Source of the DNA: Geobacteraceae bacterium
GTDB lineage: Bacteria; Desulfobacterota; Desulfuromonadia; Geobacterales; DSM-12255
Assembly: GCA_013377075.1 (NCBI GenBank)
Contig: JACABD010000005.1
Location: 58,544-104,169, forward strand
DNA: 45,626 bases
Direction of reading: 5' to 3'
The position numbers and the translations under genes are program-made. Position 1 is the first letter of the stretch; each line of letters starts with the position of its first letter. Below, piece after piece: positions 10,470-45,375 of this stretch. The notes beneath the pieces are model-generated. The model was given only the letters and a program-made list of their open reading frames with translations, was not told the DNA's origin and ran no database searches.

Positions 10470-13004
10470 CTACTTCAGACCGAAGTAAAACCTCTGTAAT
10501 CCATCGAGCATCTCCTGCTTCCCAGTTGCTGTCACCTGCAGATCAGGCAATGATTTAAGGAAGATTCTGCCGTACCCCTTGCTTAACACCCGCCGGTCGA
10601 GTATCAGCACCCCGCCCCGGTCGTCACGGCTTCGTATCAGTCTGCCGAACCCCTGTTTGAACTTTATCACCGCCTGGGGCACGGTGTACTCCATGAAAGG
10701 GTCCTTGCCTGCTGCGCTTATGTATTCGCTTCTTGCCTCCAGAATCGGCTCGGTGGGCACCCTGAAGGGGAGCCGGGTGATTATTACCAGCCCGAGTGCA
10801 TCCCCCTGAACATCAACCCCTTCCCAGAACGAGTCAGTTCCGAACAAAACCCCGCCAGTTGTACTCCTGAAACGCGACAGCAGTTGATGCCGCCCGCTCT
10901 CACCCTGACGCATCGGCGATAGCCCTATGGCTTCGAGCCGCGACGCAATCCTGTTGTAAACCTTCCGCAGCAGGTCATAGGAGGTAAAGAGAACAAAGGC
11001 GCCACCCATTGATATGGAAAGGCTTTCGAAAATCAGCTCTGCTGCAGCCGGTTCGAAATCTCTTGATGTCGGCTCGGGTATATCTGACGGGACACCGGCA
11101 AAAACCTGCTCTGCGTAGTTGAACGGGGAGGCAAGCAGAAGTTCGCTGACCCTTGCCTGGGGCAGAAGAGGGATACCGATCCGGCTTCCCATGTAGTCGA
11201 ATTTTCCGCCGACAGTCAGGGTGGCAGAGGTCAGGATCACCGTCCTGATTTTATCGAAAAGGGCATTTTTCATCGATGCTGCAACATCCAGCGGTGAGCT
11301 GCAGAGCTTGAGAAAGACTCCTTTGCCACCTCTTTTCACCTCGAACCAGCGGCAGATGAACTCACTGTGACCTACAAAAGCGGTTATCGCCTCAACTGAA
11401 CCCTCAAGCCGCCCCAGCACCCCCTTTATGTCGAGAATCTGACCGGACAGCTTTTCTGCCGGGCCTTCAGGAAGGGAGCGCAGCATCTTGTGCAGCTTTG
11501 CCAGAGAGGAGGCATAAGCACTGAGCCCCTTTGCAAGGGAGCTTATCCTCTCAAGCGACTCCTCCCAGAAATCACTTGCGTAAACAGATGGCGTCAGCCT
11601 CAGCTTCTGCTCCCCCTTGCCTGCATCAGCAGGTTTGAGATGGCCACCGAGCGCAAAGGCAATCCCGTCCATCTCCCTGTTGACAAGGTCGGTCAGCCTT
11701 GAGTGCGAAAGGAGAAGATCCTCCTCAAGCAGCTTTGTTAACGGCTCAATAATCTCTTCAAAAGCATCGGGAAGCTCTCGTAGAAGCGATGCTGCCAGCT
11801 TTGGCAGAAGGCCCCGGTCAGGGCGCCTTGGGTGCTGGAGCTTGCCAAGGAGCTTCAGCAGACCGTGCCGGGTCACCTGGCTTGACAGGCTGCCGGTTGC
11901 CACATCCTCAAGATGATGTGCCTCATCGATTATCAATCTCTGATATGGCGGCAGAATTGCTGTAGAGTTCGATCCGGACTGCTGGCGAAGAGCCAGATCG
12001 GACATGAGAAGGGCATGGTTCACCACGAGAATATCGGCGCTGGAGGCGTTTCTGCGTGAAGAGTAGTAATAGCAGCGGCTGTAATTACGGCATTTCGTTC
12101 TTGAGCACTGATCCCCTTCGCAGCGAAGCTCTTCCCAGACCTCATCCTTCGGAATGAAGCCCAGATCGTCAATGCTCCCCGATGGAGTTGAGTCGCTCCA
12201 CTCGATAATCGCCTGAAGCTCGCTCTTTTCATCAGCAAAAAGTCCGGGCTCTTCCCTGTGGGCGTTCAGCTTTCTGAGACAGAGATAGTTGCCGCGCCCT
12301 TTTATCAGCACCGCCTTGAAACTGAGCCCGCCATGTTTCTGCAAAAAGGGAATATCCTTGCCGGTCAGCTGCTCCTGCAGGTTTATGGTATTGGTGGAGA
12401 CAACAACCCTCTCCTTGTTACGCTTTGCCCAGAGCGCCGCAGGCAGTAGGTAGGCCAGGGATTTACCCGTACCTGTGCCAGCCTCGATCAGCGCAACCCT
12501 GTCCCGGTTGAACGCCTCGGCAACGGCAAAGGACATCCTGGTCTGCTCGCCACGGTGCTCGTATCCGTGAAGATTGGCGGCCATTACACCATCGGGTGCA
12601 AAGAAGACGTCGATTTCCGCCAGGGAGAGATATTCGAGTTTTTTATGGGAAAAAGGGGTTACGGCCTGATAACAATCGGTTGCATCGTTATTGACAATAT
12701 AGAAGCCAACCCCCTGATTACCGAGAGTAGCGGCAATATTCAGATCTGCCATTGAAGGGGTCAGATCACCTGAGGGGTGATTATGAATGACGACATCACC
12801 AAATGATGCTGTCACCATGATAGCGGCAACGGCATCCTTGTTCCCCCTTGCCAGTGGCTCTACCGAAACCACCAGCCTGGATTCATCGGTCTTGCCGAGG
12901 AAAAAGACCTCATTCCCCTTACAGGCCGCTATTTCGACACGAATTGCTTCAACTGCCTGTGAAGAGACAAGCTGTCTGATGCTGCTGGAAACCGCCATAT
13001 TCAT
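10470..13004 (-). CDS. dinG: DinG/XPD-type helicase with N-terminal RadC-like JAMM domain (fusion)
   Basis: An 844-residue protein with two parts. Residues 20-130 carry a complete RadC/MPN JAMM metal site: E32, then H74-x-H76-x10-D87 within IHNHPSGDLTPSMADL. From about 150 onward it is a DinG-type superfamily 2 helicase. It has Walker A EAGTGTGKS (174-182), four clustered cysteines of an XPD-type [4Fe-4S] site (CEGDQCSRTKCRNYSRC) with IIDEAHHLED after it, and the C-terminal motifs FWEGVDVQGDALGLVIITR and QGFGRLIRSRDDRGGVLI. DinG unwinds damaged DNA, R-loops and similar structures 5' to 3'. The role of the JAMM domain is unknown; free-standing RadC is not required for repair in the species tested. 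There is no frameshift between the parts. A second ATG at 12998 is an equally good start. Confidence 0.88.
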   Translation of the reverse strand: MNMAVSSSIRQLVSSQAVEAIRVEIAACKGNEVFFLGKTDESRLVVSVEPLARGNKDAVAAIMVTASFGDVVIHNHPSGDLTPSMADLNIAATLGNQGVGFYIVNNDATDCYQAVTPFSHKKLEYLSLAEIDVFFAPDGVMAANLHGYEHRGEQTRMSFAVAEAFNRDRVALIEAGTGTGKSLAYLLPAALWAKRNKERVVVSTNTINLQEQLTGKDIPFLQKHGGLSFKAVLIKGRGNYLCLRKLNAHREEPGLFADEKSELQAIIEWSDSTPSGSIDDLGFIPKDEVWEELRCEGDQCSRTKCRNYSRCYYYSSRRNASSADILVVNHALLMSDLALRQQSGSNSTAILPPYQRLIIDEAHHLEDVATGSLSSQVTRHGLLKLLGKLQHPRRPDRGLLPKLAASLLRELPDAFEEIIEPLTKLLEEDLLLSHSRLTDLVNREMDGIAFALGGHLKPADAGKGEQKLRLTPSVYASDFWEESLERISSLAKGLSAYASSLAKLHKMLRSLPEGPAEKLSGQILDIKGVLGRLEGSVEAITAFVGHSEFICRWFEVKRGGKGVFLKLCSSPLDVAASMKNALFDKIRTVILTSATLTVGGKFDYMGSRIGIPLLPQARVSELLLASPFNYAEQVFAGVPSDIPEPTSRDFEPAAAELIFESLSISMGGAFVLFTSYDLLRKVYNRIASRLEAIGLSPMRQGESGRHQLLSRFRSTTGGVLFGTDSFWEGVDVQGDALGLVIITRLPFRVPTEPILEARSEYISAAGKDPFMEYTVPQAVIKFKQGFGRLIRSRDDRGGVLILDRRVLSKGYGRIFLKSLPDLQVTATGKQEMLDGLQRFYFGLK

Positions 13005-38514: not shown

Positions 38515-39546
38515 TTAACTTTTGCCCTCTTCCAGCAGCTTCTTGATATGACGATCAAAGTCAGACTCGAACAGCCGATCCTGCACTATCCGGTATTTAT
38601 CAAATTCGCTCTCTGCAAATGCTTTAGCAATCTCCTGGGTGACCTTCCCCGGATGGTCGAGAATCTCCCGCTCGTTGAAGCGCAGAAAGGCATTTAGCCT
38701 GCCCGCCCAGTCCTCCATAGTCATGGGGATACCCCGCTCGGCCTGATCCTCGGCATAGTCCAGGTACATGGTGACAAAGCGGTCCAGCGACTTCAGTTCC
38801 TTCTCCGTCAGATAATTCTTGGCAACAGCGACATCCGGCTTGAGGATCTTGCCATCAGGCGAGTTTTTCCAGCTGGTCAGCCCCATATGCTCCTTATCGC
38901 TATCAGCCCGCTTGACAATAAGCTCAGCAGCAGTATGTCCATGAATGGCGAAATGGAGCTTGTTCTGCACCGCGGCGAAAAAAGTTTTGGTAGTCTCGGC
39001 ATCCGCGCTGTAGTCCATTGCCGTGGCATAAATATCGGTGATCTTCTGGTAGAACTTCCGTTCACTGGCACGGATCTCGCGAATTTCTGCCAACAGGTTG
39101 TCGAAATACTCCTTGCTAAAAAAGGAGCCGTTTTTCAGCCGTTCCTTGTCCAGCACATAGCCACGAATGGCAAAGTCGCGCAGAACACCAGTAGCCCACT
39201 GCCGAAACTGGACGGCACGCGCCGAGTTCACCCGGAAACCGACGGCAATGATGGCGTCAAGGTTGTAGAAATCCACATTCCTCGCCACATCCCGATTGCC
39301 TTCTTTTTGAACTGTTCGGAAATTCCGAATAGTTGAGTCTTTGGCTATTTCTCCCTGAGCATAAAGGTTGGCCAGGTGCTCATTGATCGTCGGCACAGAA
39401 ACCTCGAACAGCACAGCCATCAGCTTTTGCGTCAGCCAGACCGTCTCATCCTCGACGCGCACCTCGATGGTGCTTTCGCCAGCCTGTCTGGTGAAGATAA
39501 GGAACTCAGCTGTGCTGTTGCGGATTTGGAGTTTTTTGTCTTTCAT
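38515..39546 (-). CDS. RhuM family protein
   Basis: A 343-residue protein of the RhuM family, first noted in Salmonella pathogenicity island 3 and common in genomic islands. The N-terminal half has the conserved pattern VWLTQKLMAVLFEVSVPTIN and VDFYNLDAIIAVGFRVNSAR, then FRQWATGVLRDFAIRGYVLD, resembling KilA/Bro-type DNA-binding modules. The C-terminal part (about 170-330) is the RhuM-specific helical domain. Its biochemical activity is not established. AGGA about 7 bases before the ATG supports the start. It lies 138 bases downstream of the large NTPase gene on the same strand and 18 bases before the GNAT-like gene. Confidence 0.85.
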   Translation of the reverse strand: MKDKKLQIRNSTAEFLIFTRQAGESTIEVRVEDETVWLTQKLMAVLFEVSVPTINEHLANLYAQGEIAKDSTIRNFRTVQKEGNRDVARNVDFYNLDAIIAVGFRVNSARAVQFRQWATGVLRDFAIRGYVLDKERLKNGSFFSKEYFDNLLAEIREIRASERKFYQKITDIYATAMDYSADAETTKTFFAAVQNKLHFAIHGHTAAELIVKRADSDKEHMGLTSWKNSPDGKILKPDVAVAKNYLTEKELKSLDRFVTMYLDYAEDQAERGIPMTMEDWAGRLNAFLRFNEREILDHPGKVTQEIAKAFAESEFDKYRIVQDRLFESDFDRHIKKLLEEGKS

Positions 39547-39684: not shown

Positions 39685-42600
39685 CTAACTCTCATCCCGA
39701 CTCTCGCGTTTAAACCGTACTTCTCCATCTTCTAACCACGCGGCACCAAATGTTCTTCTCCATTTTCCATTTCGCTCATCCAACCGAGCTGTACGTTCCC
39801 CAATAAAGATCCAAGTGTACTCAAGCCCCTCTGATTGGCACCATGAGTCAAAACTTTCTTTGTCTAATATGATCGGTTCCCCACGGTCTTCAAGTTGTCT
39901 CAGAAATACTTTCCCATCTGGCAGTTGCCAAACAGTGGTATCTCTCGGGTTCGGTATATCCAGCCTTAAAGCTTCTCGTAAGCGTGGGTGAGGAAGTAAG
40001 TAACGAACATAATCGTCAATAGAGCGGTCCGTATCGTTGCCAATACTTCCAGACACTAACGGTGAAGCCAGTTTGACATCGCAATAATCCGAAGACTTCC
40101 AGAACGGAATTGTATCAAGAGATAACAACTTGATCTCGTGGGCAAAATATCCTTCTGCTTCAGTCTTTAAACTCCATCCAATAACACCCCCGCTTTGATT
40201 CCCGAGAAATCCATCCACAACTTGTTGTCGTTCTCCAGCGTTATGCGCAACAAGCGAAATAAATGATTGAATTTGACGTCGGAAAGGATCCATTAAGGAG
40301 TTGCCCTTTCGTTCCTCGTTAACCGATTCAGACCACTCAGCAACAAGCCATAAGCGGTCGTTCAATTTCCCTGTTAACCAAGGCGCTGGGTTTTCGAAGT
40401 GATCCTCAAGGAACGGCCATTTTACAAGTTTTGAGTCTTCCACTTCGTTAATAGTCAAATATGGTGGTCCAATAAATACCGATGATGTTATTTTCGTTTC
40501 GCTTCTTGGCGACAGAATCGTAGGATCTATATATTCCCGCCTCCAGACATCCTGCCGTGCTTTGTATGGTCTTGTTCCCTTACCATATTCGTCTTTGACC
40601 CAAAAGTTGTCAGCTAGTCGCGCCAAGAATTCTTCCAGCGCAATCCACTGATATTTTTCACTGATTCGCTCTATTGTCGGGCGATTTCTGTCTCCGCTGT
40701 ATGGTTCATTGGGAAAACGTGATTTAGTCCATCCAAGACCGTACGCACGTCTGGCTATCCAGAATCCAGCTGGTTCAGGGGCACGGTTTTTGGGACGTTC
40801 AAATTGTCTGTGGATTTTAGGCGCAAACTCAAGAGGGTAGGCAGCTTTGAGTGTTTCAGGAAGGCTATCTACGAATGACTTCTCGAGTTTTCTAATCGTA
40901 TCTTTGGTGGTCTCTTTTGGCTCACTCGAACTCATCAAAATACTGAATGGTGCCTCCGTAATGTTAACAGAAAGTACCGCCTCTTTGCGTTCAGCCTCCA
41001 CAGCTAGCAGAAGTTCATCAAGTTTGGCCTCGATATCCTCATTTACACTGCGCACATTTTTTTCAAAAGCTTGAGCTCTTTCATCCTGCGTCAAAGGAGG
41101 TGGTGCATCCAGAGAAGTTTCCGTGAAGGCTCTTACAGCGGAGCTGATCACTGACTTGAAAAAATCGTGGGGACGTTGACAGGACCATGCAATAGAGTTG
41201 TCCCCCGCTACCGTTGCAATCTGCTTTATGTCGTCTTCATCACAATCTAATGCAGGTGGATTACTCCCAAAAGGAGGAACCACCTCAGTAAGATTAAAAC
41301 TAATTGGCACAAGATCTCGCTCTGATGCACGTTCAATAATAGAGCAGGCTAAATCCCGAATTGACAAATGAATGGGCGGCCTTGCCCCGTTGAAAAATGC
41401 TTTAATGACAGCCTCTGCTGTAGCCTTTATTCTCACATCTACCGGATCGAGACACATGGCACCGTAACCAGCACTCAGGAGACGCTCCTTAACATAAGGA
41501 TCATCGATTGTATTAAATTTCTCCATTAATACAAGAAAGAGTGTCGGATGTCCTATCAGCAGATTCACGAGACCTTTTGTCGCCCTGTCGCGGAGTGTAC
41601 GGTGTGTAACAGCCAATAGACAGGCAAGAATAATCCCTGCAAGCCGAGTCACTTCCAGATCTGCTCTCTTAGCATCAACATTCAGAGCCCAATCTGTAAT
41701 TTCCATGGCCCGATCGACTAATTTTGACTGTTCATGTGTAAACCATTGCGACCATGCCGCATCACGGTCTGGCAACGACATTTCCAGAAATCGATCAACT
41801 ATATAGTCTGCATTCCATTTATGACCTGGGACACACGAAGTTGACAATAAGATAGCAAGCTTCTCTTGGGGATCCTCCTCCCACAGCCTATCGAGAATTT
41901 CTTTTGTCTGCAGTGTAAAAGCAGATCCAGAACGTTCACGAATGGAGGAGTGAAACACTTTACTAAAATCATTTGGATAGAACTCCGCATCCGAACTACC
42001 AAAGAAGCTTTGTAAGTGCCAAAGTTCTTTACTGTGTTTTTCGGCAACAGCAGCCCACAATGCCCCCAGCACGCCAGCCCAACGTGAACTGGGCCGGACC
42101 AAGTGAACACCATCGCTTTTTCGGATAGAACGGTTTATCAAGAATGAAAACGGCCCAGACAATACAAATGCAGAGTCGATATGCTGGCAATCACCGATAA
42201 GCCATTCAGCAATCAAGTTATCTTGCAGTCGCTGAAAGGAGAAGCGGATAACTTCGTTGGGTTTTGACCACGTACCAACAGCCCCACCTTCCACGTCACG
42301 TCGCAGAATATCAGAACCTTCAAGCACCTCCAACCAAGTCCGGTCTGTGAGCGGGTATGCTTTAAAAGCAGAATTCACCGCATCCAACGCATCGGGAAGT
42401 GATACTTTGTCTTCTTTACGTGCGACCATGATTCCAGCAAGGTCCATGAGCACAGCACGCAAAATATCATGAACCCCTTGCTGACTATCAAAACGTGTGC
42501 CTAATGACTTTGCTTTTGTCGCAAGCACAAAATCAAATATGTCTCTTGCTCCGTGAAGCCCCCGTGGGAAGACATTGATTCCTGCCTTTGCCATTGATCG

Positions 42601-44229
42601 GCAGACAGAGGTCATAAATAATGGATTGAAAAACTCCGCATCCAAAACAGGGGCAGTTGGACGGGCGATCCCTTTTTCGTCCATGAACTTCCGGAGCGCG
42701 GCCTCACGCTCCTCCATTGTACTGAAACCATCAACGGTAACACTAACGAGTTTGCCAAGCGGTGCGCTATCACCTGATAGCTCACCGTTATCATCTGAAT
42801 ATGGATGCAAATTGGCAATTAGCTCCGGTGGAACTACATAATTCAAGTATTCTTCACGACAACTAAGTACCAAAAAGACACGATCATGCATATTGACTTC
42901 TTGTATGAAACTGGACAGGTGGTTTTGCCAAACTTCAATTCCACGTCCTTCATTTAACGCATCAATGACCAACATTGCGCGTGTTCCGGCAGATTCTGCC
43001 ATAAGGTTAAGAGCAGTCAGCAATTCATGAAAAGACCAGGTTTCAAGTTCGAGTCGTTTACGAATTGAAACACGTGGATCGTCGTCTAGAATATGTTGGC
43101 CAAGTATATGGATTACCGGTGCCCCTTTATTCCATGCAGTTTCAACTCCACGAGCAAGAATGTGCGACTTGCCAGCACCTGCCCTGCCCACGAATAATGC
43201 TGTGCGCGACAAATCAATGTTTAGTAAACCAGCCCAATGGCCTGCAAAGACCTCTGGGCGAATCAAATAGTTTACCTTAGATATTTCCCATATCCGATCT
43301 CTTAGAGAATCGGTATCGGAGCTATTCTCACCTCGAATTTTGTTATTAAGTGACCGGGTTAGATCAGAAAGGCGACGTGTCATTGAATACCATGACGTAT
43401 TCCATTCGTTAATTGGCCAAGATTGTTCAATCGGCCAATTAACTGCCTCTCTCTGTGCAAGGAATGATTTCAGCGTATCTTCCACGACAATGATGTCTGC
43501 ATTGTTTATTTCGAGATTTTCGATCAAAGAAGCTGCTGCACGGGGGTTAGATTGTCGAGCCAAATCAAAAATTGTTTGAAGGTGCTGACAAATATTATCT
43601 CGTCGGTAAATGGCATCAAATGGCATTAAAGCTTTCGTATCAACATGTTCTCCAGGGCTGTATCTGGCTTGAAGATCGTTAATTGTTCGAACTAAATGCC
43701 GATTCATCCACTCACGTGAAAAGATCTTTCCACTGAAAAAATATTTTATCAGGTGCTCTGCTTCCGGCTTCAGAAGTCGAGATTCAATTTCAAAAGCGGT
43801 CCAGGATTCAAACTCTATAGCGATTCCATTTGATGCTAATTTTTCCCACTGATTGACATACGAATCCCATTTTCCCCAAACACCTTCAGTGGAGCCTCCG
43901 CGTGCATTCCGCTTTCCCGTAAAATCACAGGCGATGGCAATTACGTACCGTTCAAGTTCTGGATGTTGTTTTAATGCGGTTTTTACAGAGTTATCAATCT
44001 TGATCCAGTCGATCTTGTCTCTGGATGAATAGTATTTGGCTTGATACCCAACTTTTCGTCCGGAAGGCAGGATGCGAAGCGCTTCGACTCCACCGTCGCC
44101 ACCAGAGCCATCAATTCGACGGCACTCACCACCCCCTTTGTCAAGATTTGCTAAATGACAGATCAACTGTTCGAAGATGCTGCGTTGCCCTTCAATGCTA
44201 TCTCCTCTAATGTTGTCAAAATTGATCAT
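39685..44229 (-). CDS. Avs-like STAND NTPase with N-terminal PD-(D/E)XK (Mrr-like) nuclease
   Basis: A 1514-residue protein. Residues 1-150 match a restriction-type nuclease: helix glutamate in EGQRSIFEQL, then D45-GGVE49 and Q63-A-K65 (GYQAKYY). A STAND NTPase follows, with Walker A VGRAGAGKS (347-355), Walker B LVIDALNE (420-427, the DALNE form common in Avs proteins) and the sensor-like LSCREEYL near 460. The remaining 900 or so residues are helical and probably form the target-sensing repeats; near 1300 is ERISEKYQWIALEEFLARL. The layout fits the antiviral Avs/AVAST family, which assembles on phage terminase or portal proteins and then activates its nuclease. Subtype (2, 3 or 4) cannot be fixed by eye. 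The gene is AT-richer than the nuo genes. Its start has a TGAGGAA site. Confidence 0.8.
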   Translation of the reverse strand: MINFDNIRGDSIEGQRSIFEQLICHLANLDKGGGECRRIDGSGGDGGVEALRILPSGRKVGYQAKYYSSRDKIDWIKIDNSVKTALKQHPELERYVIAIACDFTGKRNARGGSTEGVWGKWDSYVNQWEKLASNGIAIEFESWTAFEIESRLLKPEAEHLIKYFFSGKIFSREWMNRHLVRTINDLQARYSPGEHVDTKALMPFDAIYRRDNICQHLQTIFDLARQSNPRAAASLIENLEINNADIIVVEDTLKSFLAQREAVNWPIEQSWPINEWNTSWYSMTRRLSDLTRSLNNKIRGENSSDTDSLRDRIWEISKVNYLIRPEVFAGHWAGLLNIDLSRTALFVGRAGAGKSHILARGVETAWNKGAPVIHILGQHILDDDPRVSIRKRLELETWSFHELLTALNLMAESAGTRAMLVIDALNEGRGIEVWQNHLSSFIQEVNMHDRVFLVLSCREEYLNYVVPPELIANLHPYSDDNGELSGDSAPLGKLVSVTVDGFSTMEEREAALRKFMDEKGIARPTAPVLDAEFFNPLFMTSVCRSMAKAGINVFPRGLHGARDIFDFVLATKAKSLGTRFDSQQGVHDILRAVLMDLAGIMVARKEDKVSLPDALDAVNSAFKAYPLTDRTWLEVLEGSDILRRDVEGGAVGTWSKPNEVIRFSFQRLQDNLIAEWLIGDCQHIDSAFVLSGPFSFLINRSIRKSDGVHLVRPSSRWAGVLGALWAAVAEKHSKELWHLQSFFGSSDAEFYPNDFSKVFHSSIRERSGSAFTLQTKEILDRLWEEDPQEKLAILLSTSCVPGHKWNADYIVDRFLEMSLPDRDAAWSQWFTHEQSKLVDRAMEITDWALNVDAKRADLEVTRLAGIILACLLAVTHRTLRDRATKGLVNLLIGHPTLFLVLMEKFNTIDDPYVKERLLSAGYGAMCLDPVDVRIKATAEAVIKAFFNGARPPIHLSIRDLACSIIERASERDLVPISFNLTEVVPPFGSNPPALDCDEDDIKQIATVAGDNSIAWSCQRPHDFFKSVISSAVRAFTETSLDAPPPLTQDERAQAFEKNVRSVNEDIEAKLDELLLAVEAERKEAVLSVNITEAPFSILMSSSEPKETTKDTIRKLEKSFVDSLPETLKAAYPLEFAPKIHRQFERPKNRAPEPAGFWIARRAYGLGWTKSRFPNEPYSGDRNRPTIERISEKYQWIALEEFLARLADNFWVKDEYGKGTRPYKARQDVWRREYIDPTILSPRSETKITSSVFIGPPYLTINEVEDSKLVKWPFLEDHFENPAPWLTGKLNDRLWLVAEWSESVNEERKGNSLMDPFRRQIQSFISLVAHNAGERQQVVDGFLGNQSGGVIGWSLKTEAEGYFAHEIKLLSLDTIPFWKSSDYCDVKLASPLVSGSIGNDTDRSIDDYVRYLLPHPRLREALRLDIPNPRDTTVWQLPDGKVFLRQLEDRGEPIILDKESFDSWCQSEGLEYTWIFIGERTARLDERNGKWRRTFGAAWLEDGEVRFKRESRDES

Positions 44230-44411
44230 AGTAGATTCCTCAAGTTCCCCAGCAAATCTTTAGTGCACTGGCCAAATACTGTTGCCAGACATGATTTCCT
44301 CACTCATCAAAGCAGACCCGCACAACTTCCGCCTTAAACCTCTCCGCTAGCGGTTGTACGACTTCATTGTCTTTGGTATAAATTGGGATAGATCAATTTT
44401 TCAGTTCTAAA

Positions 44412-44436
44412 AAAGGCCTCCTTTACAGGGAGGCCT
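44412..44436 (-). terminator. Rho-independent terminator after the TIR/NDT-like gene
   Basis: A 9-base stem AAGGCCTCC/GGAGGCCTT with a 7-base loop, followed on the minus strand by TTTTTAGAA. It lies 50 bases after the stop of the gene at 44486 and separates that operon from the Avs-like gene. The remainder of the 256-base gap (44230-44485) shows no gene and no convincing promoter, although one for the Avs-like gene should be there. Confidence 0.82.
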
Positions 44437-44485
44437 TCGCGACAACTCTACTATTTATTCACATCTTCACCACACACCCATTTCA

Positions 44486-45109
44486 TCATCCCCTCAAGTT
44501 ATTCCTGATCCACTCTGAAGCAAAGATTGCGAAGTCATTGAATCCAAGTTCGTCCTCTCTTATTCCGGCAATTCTACAAATTTCAGGAAGCTTGTCCCTG
44601 AAAAGCCTGTATCGCTCCACCACTACAGCGCCACCAGGAACAGTAGTCCGCTTGGAGGCATTTCTAAGCCAGTCGGTTGCAACCTTTATAGCTTTTTCAG
44701 GATTATTGTCATGCTGCTTGATATCTTGCCCTGCTATATCTGAGATGAAGATCTGATACCTGTATCGATCTACATCCAGAATTAAACAGGATTTTTTCTT
44801 TTGGTCGCTGTTGCCGTATTTCCTTGCGCCCAGGAAAATCCCTAACTCCAGCGGCATGTTGAAGCGGGGGAGGTTGGTGGTTTTACACAACTCGGTTCTG
44901 CTGATATCGTGAATACCGTACTTGCACTGCGAAATAATCCGTGAAATCTTTTCTATTCTGACCTCACCGCCATCGACCTCCTCCAGGGCACATCTTGCCC
45001 TGAAGTTACAGTCAAACACTGCAAATACAATAGCGCGAAAGGTTTCGAAATACTCCTTGTCGAATGGGCAATTAATAAAAACATTGCTCGCATATTCCTT
45101 TACAGCCAT
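44486..45109 (-). CDS. Uncharacterised protein with TIR/nucleoside deoxyribosyltransferase-like pattern
   Basis: A 207-residue protein I cannot name. The pattern suggests a Rossmann-like fold of the TIR or nucleoside 2-deoxyribosyltransferase type: strand 1 is NVFINCPFDKEY (9-20), a later strand-loop is YGIHDISR (64-71), and the putative catalytic glutamate lies in FNMPLELGIFLGA (83-95, E86 or E88). Other striking segments are GGEVRIEKISRIISQC and FISDIAGQDIKQHD. TIR-type enzymes cleave NAD or related nucleotides and are frequent defence effectors, but that is inference here. Its ATG overlaps the stop of the small basic protein gene as TAATG, so the two are translationally coupled. A terminator follows at 44412-44436. 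No signal peptide or membrane segment is seen. Confidence 0.72.
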   Translation of the reverse strand: MAVKEYASNVFINCPFDKEYFETFRAIVFAVFDCNFRARCALEEVDGGEVRIEKISRIISQCKYGIHDISRTELCKTTNLPRFNMPLELGIFLGARKYGNSDQKKKSCLILDVDRYRYQIFISDIAGQDIKQHDNNPEKAIKVATDWLRNASKRTTVPGGAVVVERYRLFRDKLPEICRIAGIREDELGFNDFAIFASEWIRNNLRG

Positions 45110-45375
45110 TACTTTTTGCCAGACTTACTGACGCTCAATATTGCAGAACGCGCCGCAGTACGGGAAATTGTGCCAGCTTTAGCCGGTGACTTTACCTGAC
45201 TTGCTTTTTGAGTTAAAGCTGATGCAGCAGATCTTGCCACTCCAGAAGATGTGCCCCTACCTTGCGAAAGCGCACTACCAGCAGCAGTCTTGGATTTTGC
45301 TGAACTGCATGAACTGTTGAGAGTCTTTGCTGCACTTGAAGCTGCATTAGTCCCTGTAACTTTGAGTTTTTGCAT
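45109..45375 (-). CDS. Small, highly basic Ser/Ala/Lys-rich protein
   Basis: An 88-residue protein of unknown function. It has no Asp or Glu and no Phe, Tyr, Trp or His; Ser, Ala and Lys make up well over half of it. Three loosely repeated units are visible: TAAGSALSQ (30-38), RSAASALTQ (48-56) and RTAARSAIL (72-80). This composition resembles histone-H1-like tails and suggests a disordered, nucleic-acid-binding protein. It is a real gene by context: a near-consensus promoter (45413-45440), an AAGGAG site (45383-45388) with 7-base spacing, and TAATG coupling to the next gene. It could neutralise, target or be a substrate of the enzyme-like protein that follows; the sequence does not decide. 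Confidence 0.72.
   Translation of the reverse strand: MQKLKVTGTNAASSAAKTLNSSCSSAKSKTAAGSALSQGRGTSSGVARSAASALTQKASQVKSPAKAGTISRTAARSAILSVSKSGKK

Follow-up and report, generated by a model that had tools for sequence, protein, structure and literature searches.

The gene at positions 39685..44229 (minus strand) of the window, as we call the whole 45,626-nucleotide stretch of Geobacteraceae DNA analyzed here, encodes a 1514-residue STAND NTPase which, judged by sequence, is a distant member, of a known kind, of the Avs2 family along its whole length. The locus is best read as that of an Avs2 with a nuclease head, acquired by horizontal transfer and standing alone, whose target would be a packaging protein of phages and most probably the large terminase. 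We give a probability of about 0.85 to the mechanism that this implies: an NLR-like receptor of the Avs2 family that would work alone, sense phage (most likely through the large terminase), form a multimer and cut DNA. The C-terminal helical-repeat and strand-rich part would bind the large subunit of the terminase in tailed phages; ligand binding and the ATP of the central STAND NTPase would together lead the subunits to assemble into a multimer; the multimer would bring the N-terminal PD-(D/E)XK nuclease heads together, and the resulting cutting of DNA would abort the infection and sacrifice the cell. The analysis itself gives the family membership, the predicted folds, the intact motifs and the closest relatives of solved structure; the ligand, the multimer formation and the DNA cutting we infer from those relatives.

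The avs2 gene, delimited by its open reading frame and by PADLOC, NCBIfam and PDB matches, is one intact frame with an ATG start and no internal stop, and a genome search found a single copy. Its product matches the PADLOC Avs2 model PDLC02161 from end to end (1024 bits, residues 3-1512) and, with scores of 408-862 bits, five more Avs2 models, of which PDLC02164 scores highest. The NCBIfam Avs2 equivalog NF041813 covers residues 183-1245 with 503.8 bits, about half of its cut-off of 1000 bits; the protein thus lies outside the strict NCBI equivalog set, and our claim is limited to divergent membership in the Avs2 family taken more widely. The proteins of Methylobacter (513), Vibrio harveyi (687) and Burkholderia glumae (734) also score under this cut-off, and those of Rhodothermus (1424) and Escherichia coli (1687), both named Avs2 by NCBI, score above it. 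In the PDB, the window protein matches E. coli Avs2 (9o4e, E=5e-70), whose gene is L041:5506-9960 or one nearly identical to it. A nine-member family profile that includes the window protein matches chain residues 165-1480 of 9o4e with 890 bits, and has no match to it before chain residue 165; this comparison is one of sequences, 9o4e being absent among the fold-search matches listed.

The preliminary description of this DNA had recognized a nuclease-headed STAND NTPase of the Avs type, which the profiles, the structural model and the fold matches bear out, but it had also held that the C-terminal part did not fix a subtype. This was wrong, since the 1024-bit match to PDLC02161 and the 890-bit profile match to 9o4e make the protein an Avs2 over its whole length. 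In the search of Avs profiles that it had proposed, Avs2 proved to be the best match, at full length. Membership in Avs4 was rejected on an NCBIfam Avs4 score of 18 bits over residues 47-167 (cut-off 1500); the sole Avs4 match in PADLOC is a local one, of 14.4 bits, over the nuclease head. Avs3 membership was likewise rejected at the profile level, with no Avs3 model among the PADLOC or NCBIfam matches. Neither for the whole protein nor for the head did Pfam give a usable match, its P-loop matches being sub-threshold.

The Mrr-like PD-(D/E)XK nuclease head (residues 1-165, 43735..44229, minus strand) was recognized by motif, profile and fold. Its nuclease residues, D45-x3-E49...Q63-x-K65, are those that the preliminary description had picked out, and they are conserved in Mrr-type heads. 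In ten aligned heads, which for the most part share about 30% identity with that of the window protein, E49, Q63 and K65 are invariant, D45 is present in 9/10, and all four are kept together in nine; 11 of the 134 ungapped columns are invariant. The conservation of the nuclease and NTPase motif residues exceeds chance. Residues 1-165 are modelled in the order helix-strand-strand-strand-helix-strand that is typical of PD-(D/E)XK (pLDDT mostly 80-90), and the active-site residues lie on this alpha-beta-beta-beta-alpha-beta core; the model therefore contains, in its N-terminal ~165 residues, the nuclease fold on which the earlier proposal depended. Pfam nuclease models gave no match to the head at E<=1 and a PDB search with the head alone gave none; the link to Avs4 is seen only with the family profile (8dgf residues 12-107, E=0.0013) and with the fold. 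The head of the Rhodothermus Avs2 matches the NCBI Avs4 model at 1.2e-8. When residues 1-644 were modelled (mean pLDDT 73.9), the first fold match was Avs4 8dgf (Foldseek E 2e-9; VIA-align Z 13.3, aligned from 1 to 644), with a large rmsd of 14.9 A that fits a different placement of the domains. An Avs2-like protein on a viral contig (L039:5872-10173) has an Mrr-like head in which N replaces the catalytic D (NPGVE...QAKF) and whose nuclease is perhaps inactive or altered.

The central STAND NTPase (residues 336-640, 42310..43224, minus strand), defined by invariant columns and by the model, contains R458 and the Walker A (G348-R-A-G-A-G-K354-S355, residues 348-355) and DALNE Walker B (D423-A-L-N-E427, residues 423-427) motifs, both of which had been correctly located before. 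K354, D423 and E427 are present in every relative that aligns there, as in an intact STAND NTPase, and the modelled domain matches the NTPases of Avs4, NLRC4 and NOD2 (Z 11-13).

The sensor (residues 641-1514, 39688..42309, minus strand), defined by its model and fold matches, was modelled with moderate confidence (m33abb5769d99, residues 620-1514, mean pLDDT 67.9) as a helical repeat (~700-1040 and 1150-1210) and, after it, a C-terminal domain rich in strands (~1280-1514). Its best fold match in VIA-align is Avs3 with the terminase of phage PhiV-1 (8dgc, Z 13.5 over 432 residues; next entry 9.2), which Foldseek also places at rank 1 (E=2.9e-5; next unrelated entry 1e-2); the match is at the level of domain arrangement, with an rmsd of 8.4 A. 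Helical repeats give middling Z values by default. The Avs3 match stands clear of the other entries and reaches into the strand-rich domain, which in a model of this quality favors terminase as the ligand, and the large terminase would be the most likely one. Terminases of the families PF03354 and PF20454, searched for as ligands from resident prophages, are absent from the genome, so no self-ligand would come from these two families.

In the literature, Avs1-4 are described as nucleases that are triggered by large terminase, portal or Ksap1 (PMC12931631). EcAvs2 is described as sensing via its C-terminal part, with an ATP-dependent assembly that activates the N-terminal effector; the same paper gives the large terminase as the target of Avs1-3, and reports that a Klebsiella Avs2 binds both terminase and Ksap1 (PMC12724215). 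For an Alcaligenes Avs2, a response to the lambda portal is reported (PMC13141931), and Avs2 ligands are therefore not fixed.

It is thus possible, if somewhat unlikely, that the same receptor has a ligand other than the large terminase, be it portal, a Ksap1-like protein or a phage protein new to Avs systems. Terminase, Ksap1 and portal are, after all, all reported triggers among Avs2 relatives, and divergence from the Mrr-type plasmid relatives is uneven: identity is 28-33% in the NTPase, 25-34% in residues 641-1003 and 29-39% in 1151-1250, compared with 12-18% in 166-335, 14-20% in 1004-1150 and 14-21% in 1251-1514, so that the C-terminal region counts among the most diverged. Outside the window and Methylobacter pair, the C-terminal 260 residues share 8-21% identity with relatives; given this divergence and a score at half of the NCBI Avs2 cut-off, the ligand could differ. 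The closest solved sensor fold is nevertheless that of Avs3 with terminase and not that of Avs4 with portal, in a model of moderate confidence. A more far-reaching proposal places the window protein in a deep Avs2 branch with its Methylobacter relative and has the diverged C-terminal 260 residues of this branch recognize a phage protein new to Avs sensing; it strikes us as improbable.

A further alternative concerns what the head does. In E. coli Avs2, as solved, the N-terminus is another one, helix-rich and without the nuclease motifs of the window head, and hence the Avs2 core does not need an Mrr-like head; moreover, N stands at the D45 position in the relative L039. One could therefore imagine a head that is a nuclease by fold and not by activity, or that acts on a substrate other than DNA, in a receptor that kills by another route. 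We consider this quite unlikely, because nine of the ten Mrr-type heads retain the full set of D45, E49, Q63 and K65, and because the head closest to this one belongs to Avs4, a reported nuclease (PMC12931631). A STAND regulator without any role in defense would accord with the fact that Pfam yields sub-threshold P-loop matches alone, but it is very improbable in view of the Avs2 profiles that dominate the matches, the terminator-like hairpin that parts avs2 from the upstream gene, and the integrases, transposases and restriction genes that adjoin the relatives on plasmids.

The genomic setting also speaks to the origin of the gene. The right end of the window is the end of the contig, ~1.4 kb upstream of the avs2 start. 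The GC profile falls to ~0.46 across avs2 from ~0.55 around it, and a match of any kind was found in 5/97 related genomes, the source genome counted in; both are as expected for a mobile defense gene. Between the upstream gene and avs2, sequence and RNA folding reveal an intrinsic-terminator-like hairpin (44409..44437, minus strand; -17.2 kcal/mol, z -3.2), and its position 5' of avs2 means that the gene is probably its own transcription unit. Near the Methylobacter gene (L002) and the plasmid relatives there is no conserved partner gene, as for a system of a single gene, and several of the plasmid relatives adjoin integrases, transposases, restriction and toxin-antitoxin genes. The setting of Avs2 and its relatives fits the horizontal transfer of a single-gene defense system. 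P0002 was rejected as a partner of Avs2: the P0002 relatives examined sit elsewhere without Avs2, and the Avs2 relatives occur without P0002.

Several other genes of the window deserve mention in their own right. Immediately downstream of avs2 and on its strand is a RhuM-family gene (38515-39546, minus strand; PADLOC candidate PDC-S05) with homologs in phage records from human faecal samples, the best at 59-63% identity. A small basic 88-residue reading frame (45109-45375, minus strand) is directly followed by the gene of a 207-residue protein (44486-45109, minus strand) that has a weak CAP12/Pycsar TIR-like match of 15.3 bits, under the cut-off. Comparable pairs of a small basic reading frame and a homolog occur at L047 (56 and 211 residues) and in the same-genus genome G002 (L043; 99 and 231 residues), and the two genes are possibly an undescribed two-gene unit. 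Farther away, a DinG-type helicase of 844 residues (10470-13004, minus strand) matches the PADLOC type IV DinG models with 439 bits.

A comparison of heads across the family suggests that they have been swapped on the Avs2 chassis, since the distribution of nuclease-type and other heads on the core tree needs at least two changes on its starred branches. Mrr-like heads are common to the window protein and the related plasmid-borne Avs2 proteins, and in a genome of the same taxonomic family (G004) the Avs2 homolog bears a DUF4062 head. In two genomes of the same order, Avs2 homologs (L004:235-4629 and L005:187-4176, both minus strand) form a branch separate from the window protein; the head of the former is DUF4062 instead of a nuclease, an uncharacterized effector, and that of the latter is cut by the locus end. 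By eye, the segment that encodes the N-terminus of 9o4e (L041:5506-6000) is without a PD-(D/E)XK motif, though the literature summarizes Avs1-4 as nuclease effectors. The pairing of a nuclease head with an Avs2 core is not new: it is already catalogued, in that the PADLOC models start at the head and the Rhodothermus Avs2 named by NCBI has the same architecture. With the present protein, Avs2 gains a deep branch that is nuclease-headed. The protein also offers a clear example of a single sensor and NTPase chassis under different heads, Mrr-like here, helix-rich in E. coli and, in one genome of its taxonomic family, DUF4062. Its ligand, if determined, would show how far terminase recognition reaches across very diverged Avs2 sensors.

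Among known proteins, the sole close relative found is an Avs2-like protein of a Methylobacter MAG (L002:5989-10458), 60% identical from end to end, with the same head and sensor, and the sister of the window protein in the tree (100/100). Its contig stops just past the gene, which lies beside housekeeping genes; upstream are pyruvate kinase, 6-phosphofructokinase and queG-like genes and, unlike in the window, no P0002-like gene. Searches of viral contigs returned no relatives with a single-sequence query and ten with the family alignment. The Rhodothermus marinus Avs2 (WP_144295528.1) shares the architecture of Mrr-like head and Avs2 core, but it is only ~25% identical overall and lies on a separate tree branch. 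E. coli Avs2 (L041:5506-9960, a gene that E. coli genomes annotate as avs2) resembles the window protein in its NTPase, its whole sensor part and its length class, the NTPases being ~30% identical and the last 260 residues 16%, whereas the N-terminal ~165 residues are unrelated. Portal-bound Avs4 (8dgf) is related in the arrangement of its nuclease head and NTPase, and its sensor has no sequence match in the window protein. Terminase-bound Avs3 (8dgc), ~500 residues longer and undetected in all the sequence-profile searches made, nonetheless provides the closest solved fold for the sensor half.
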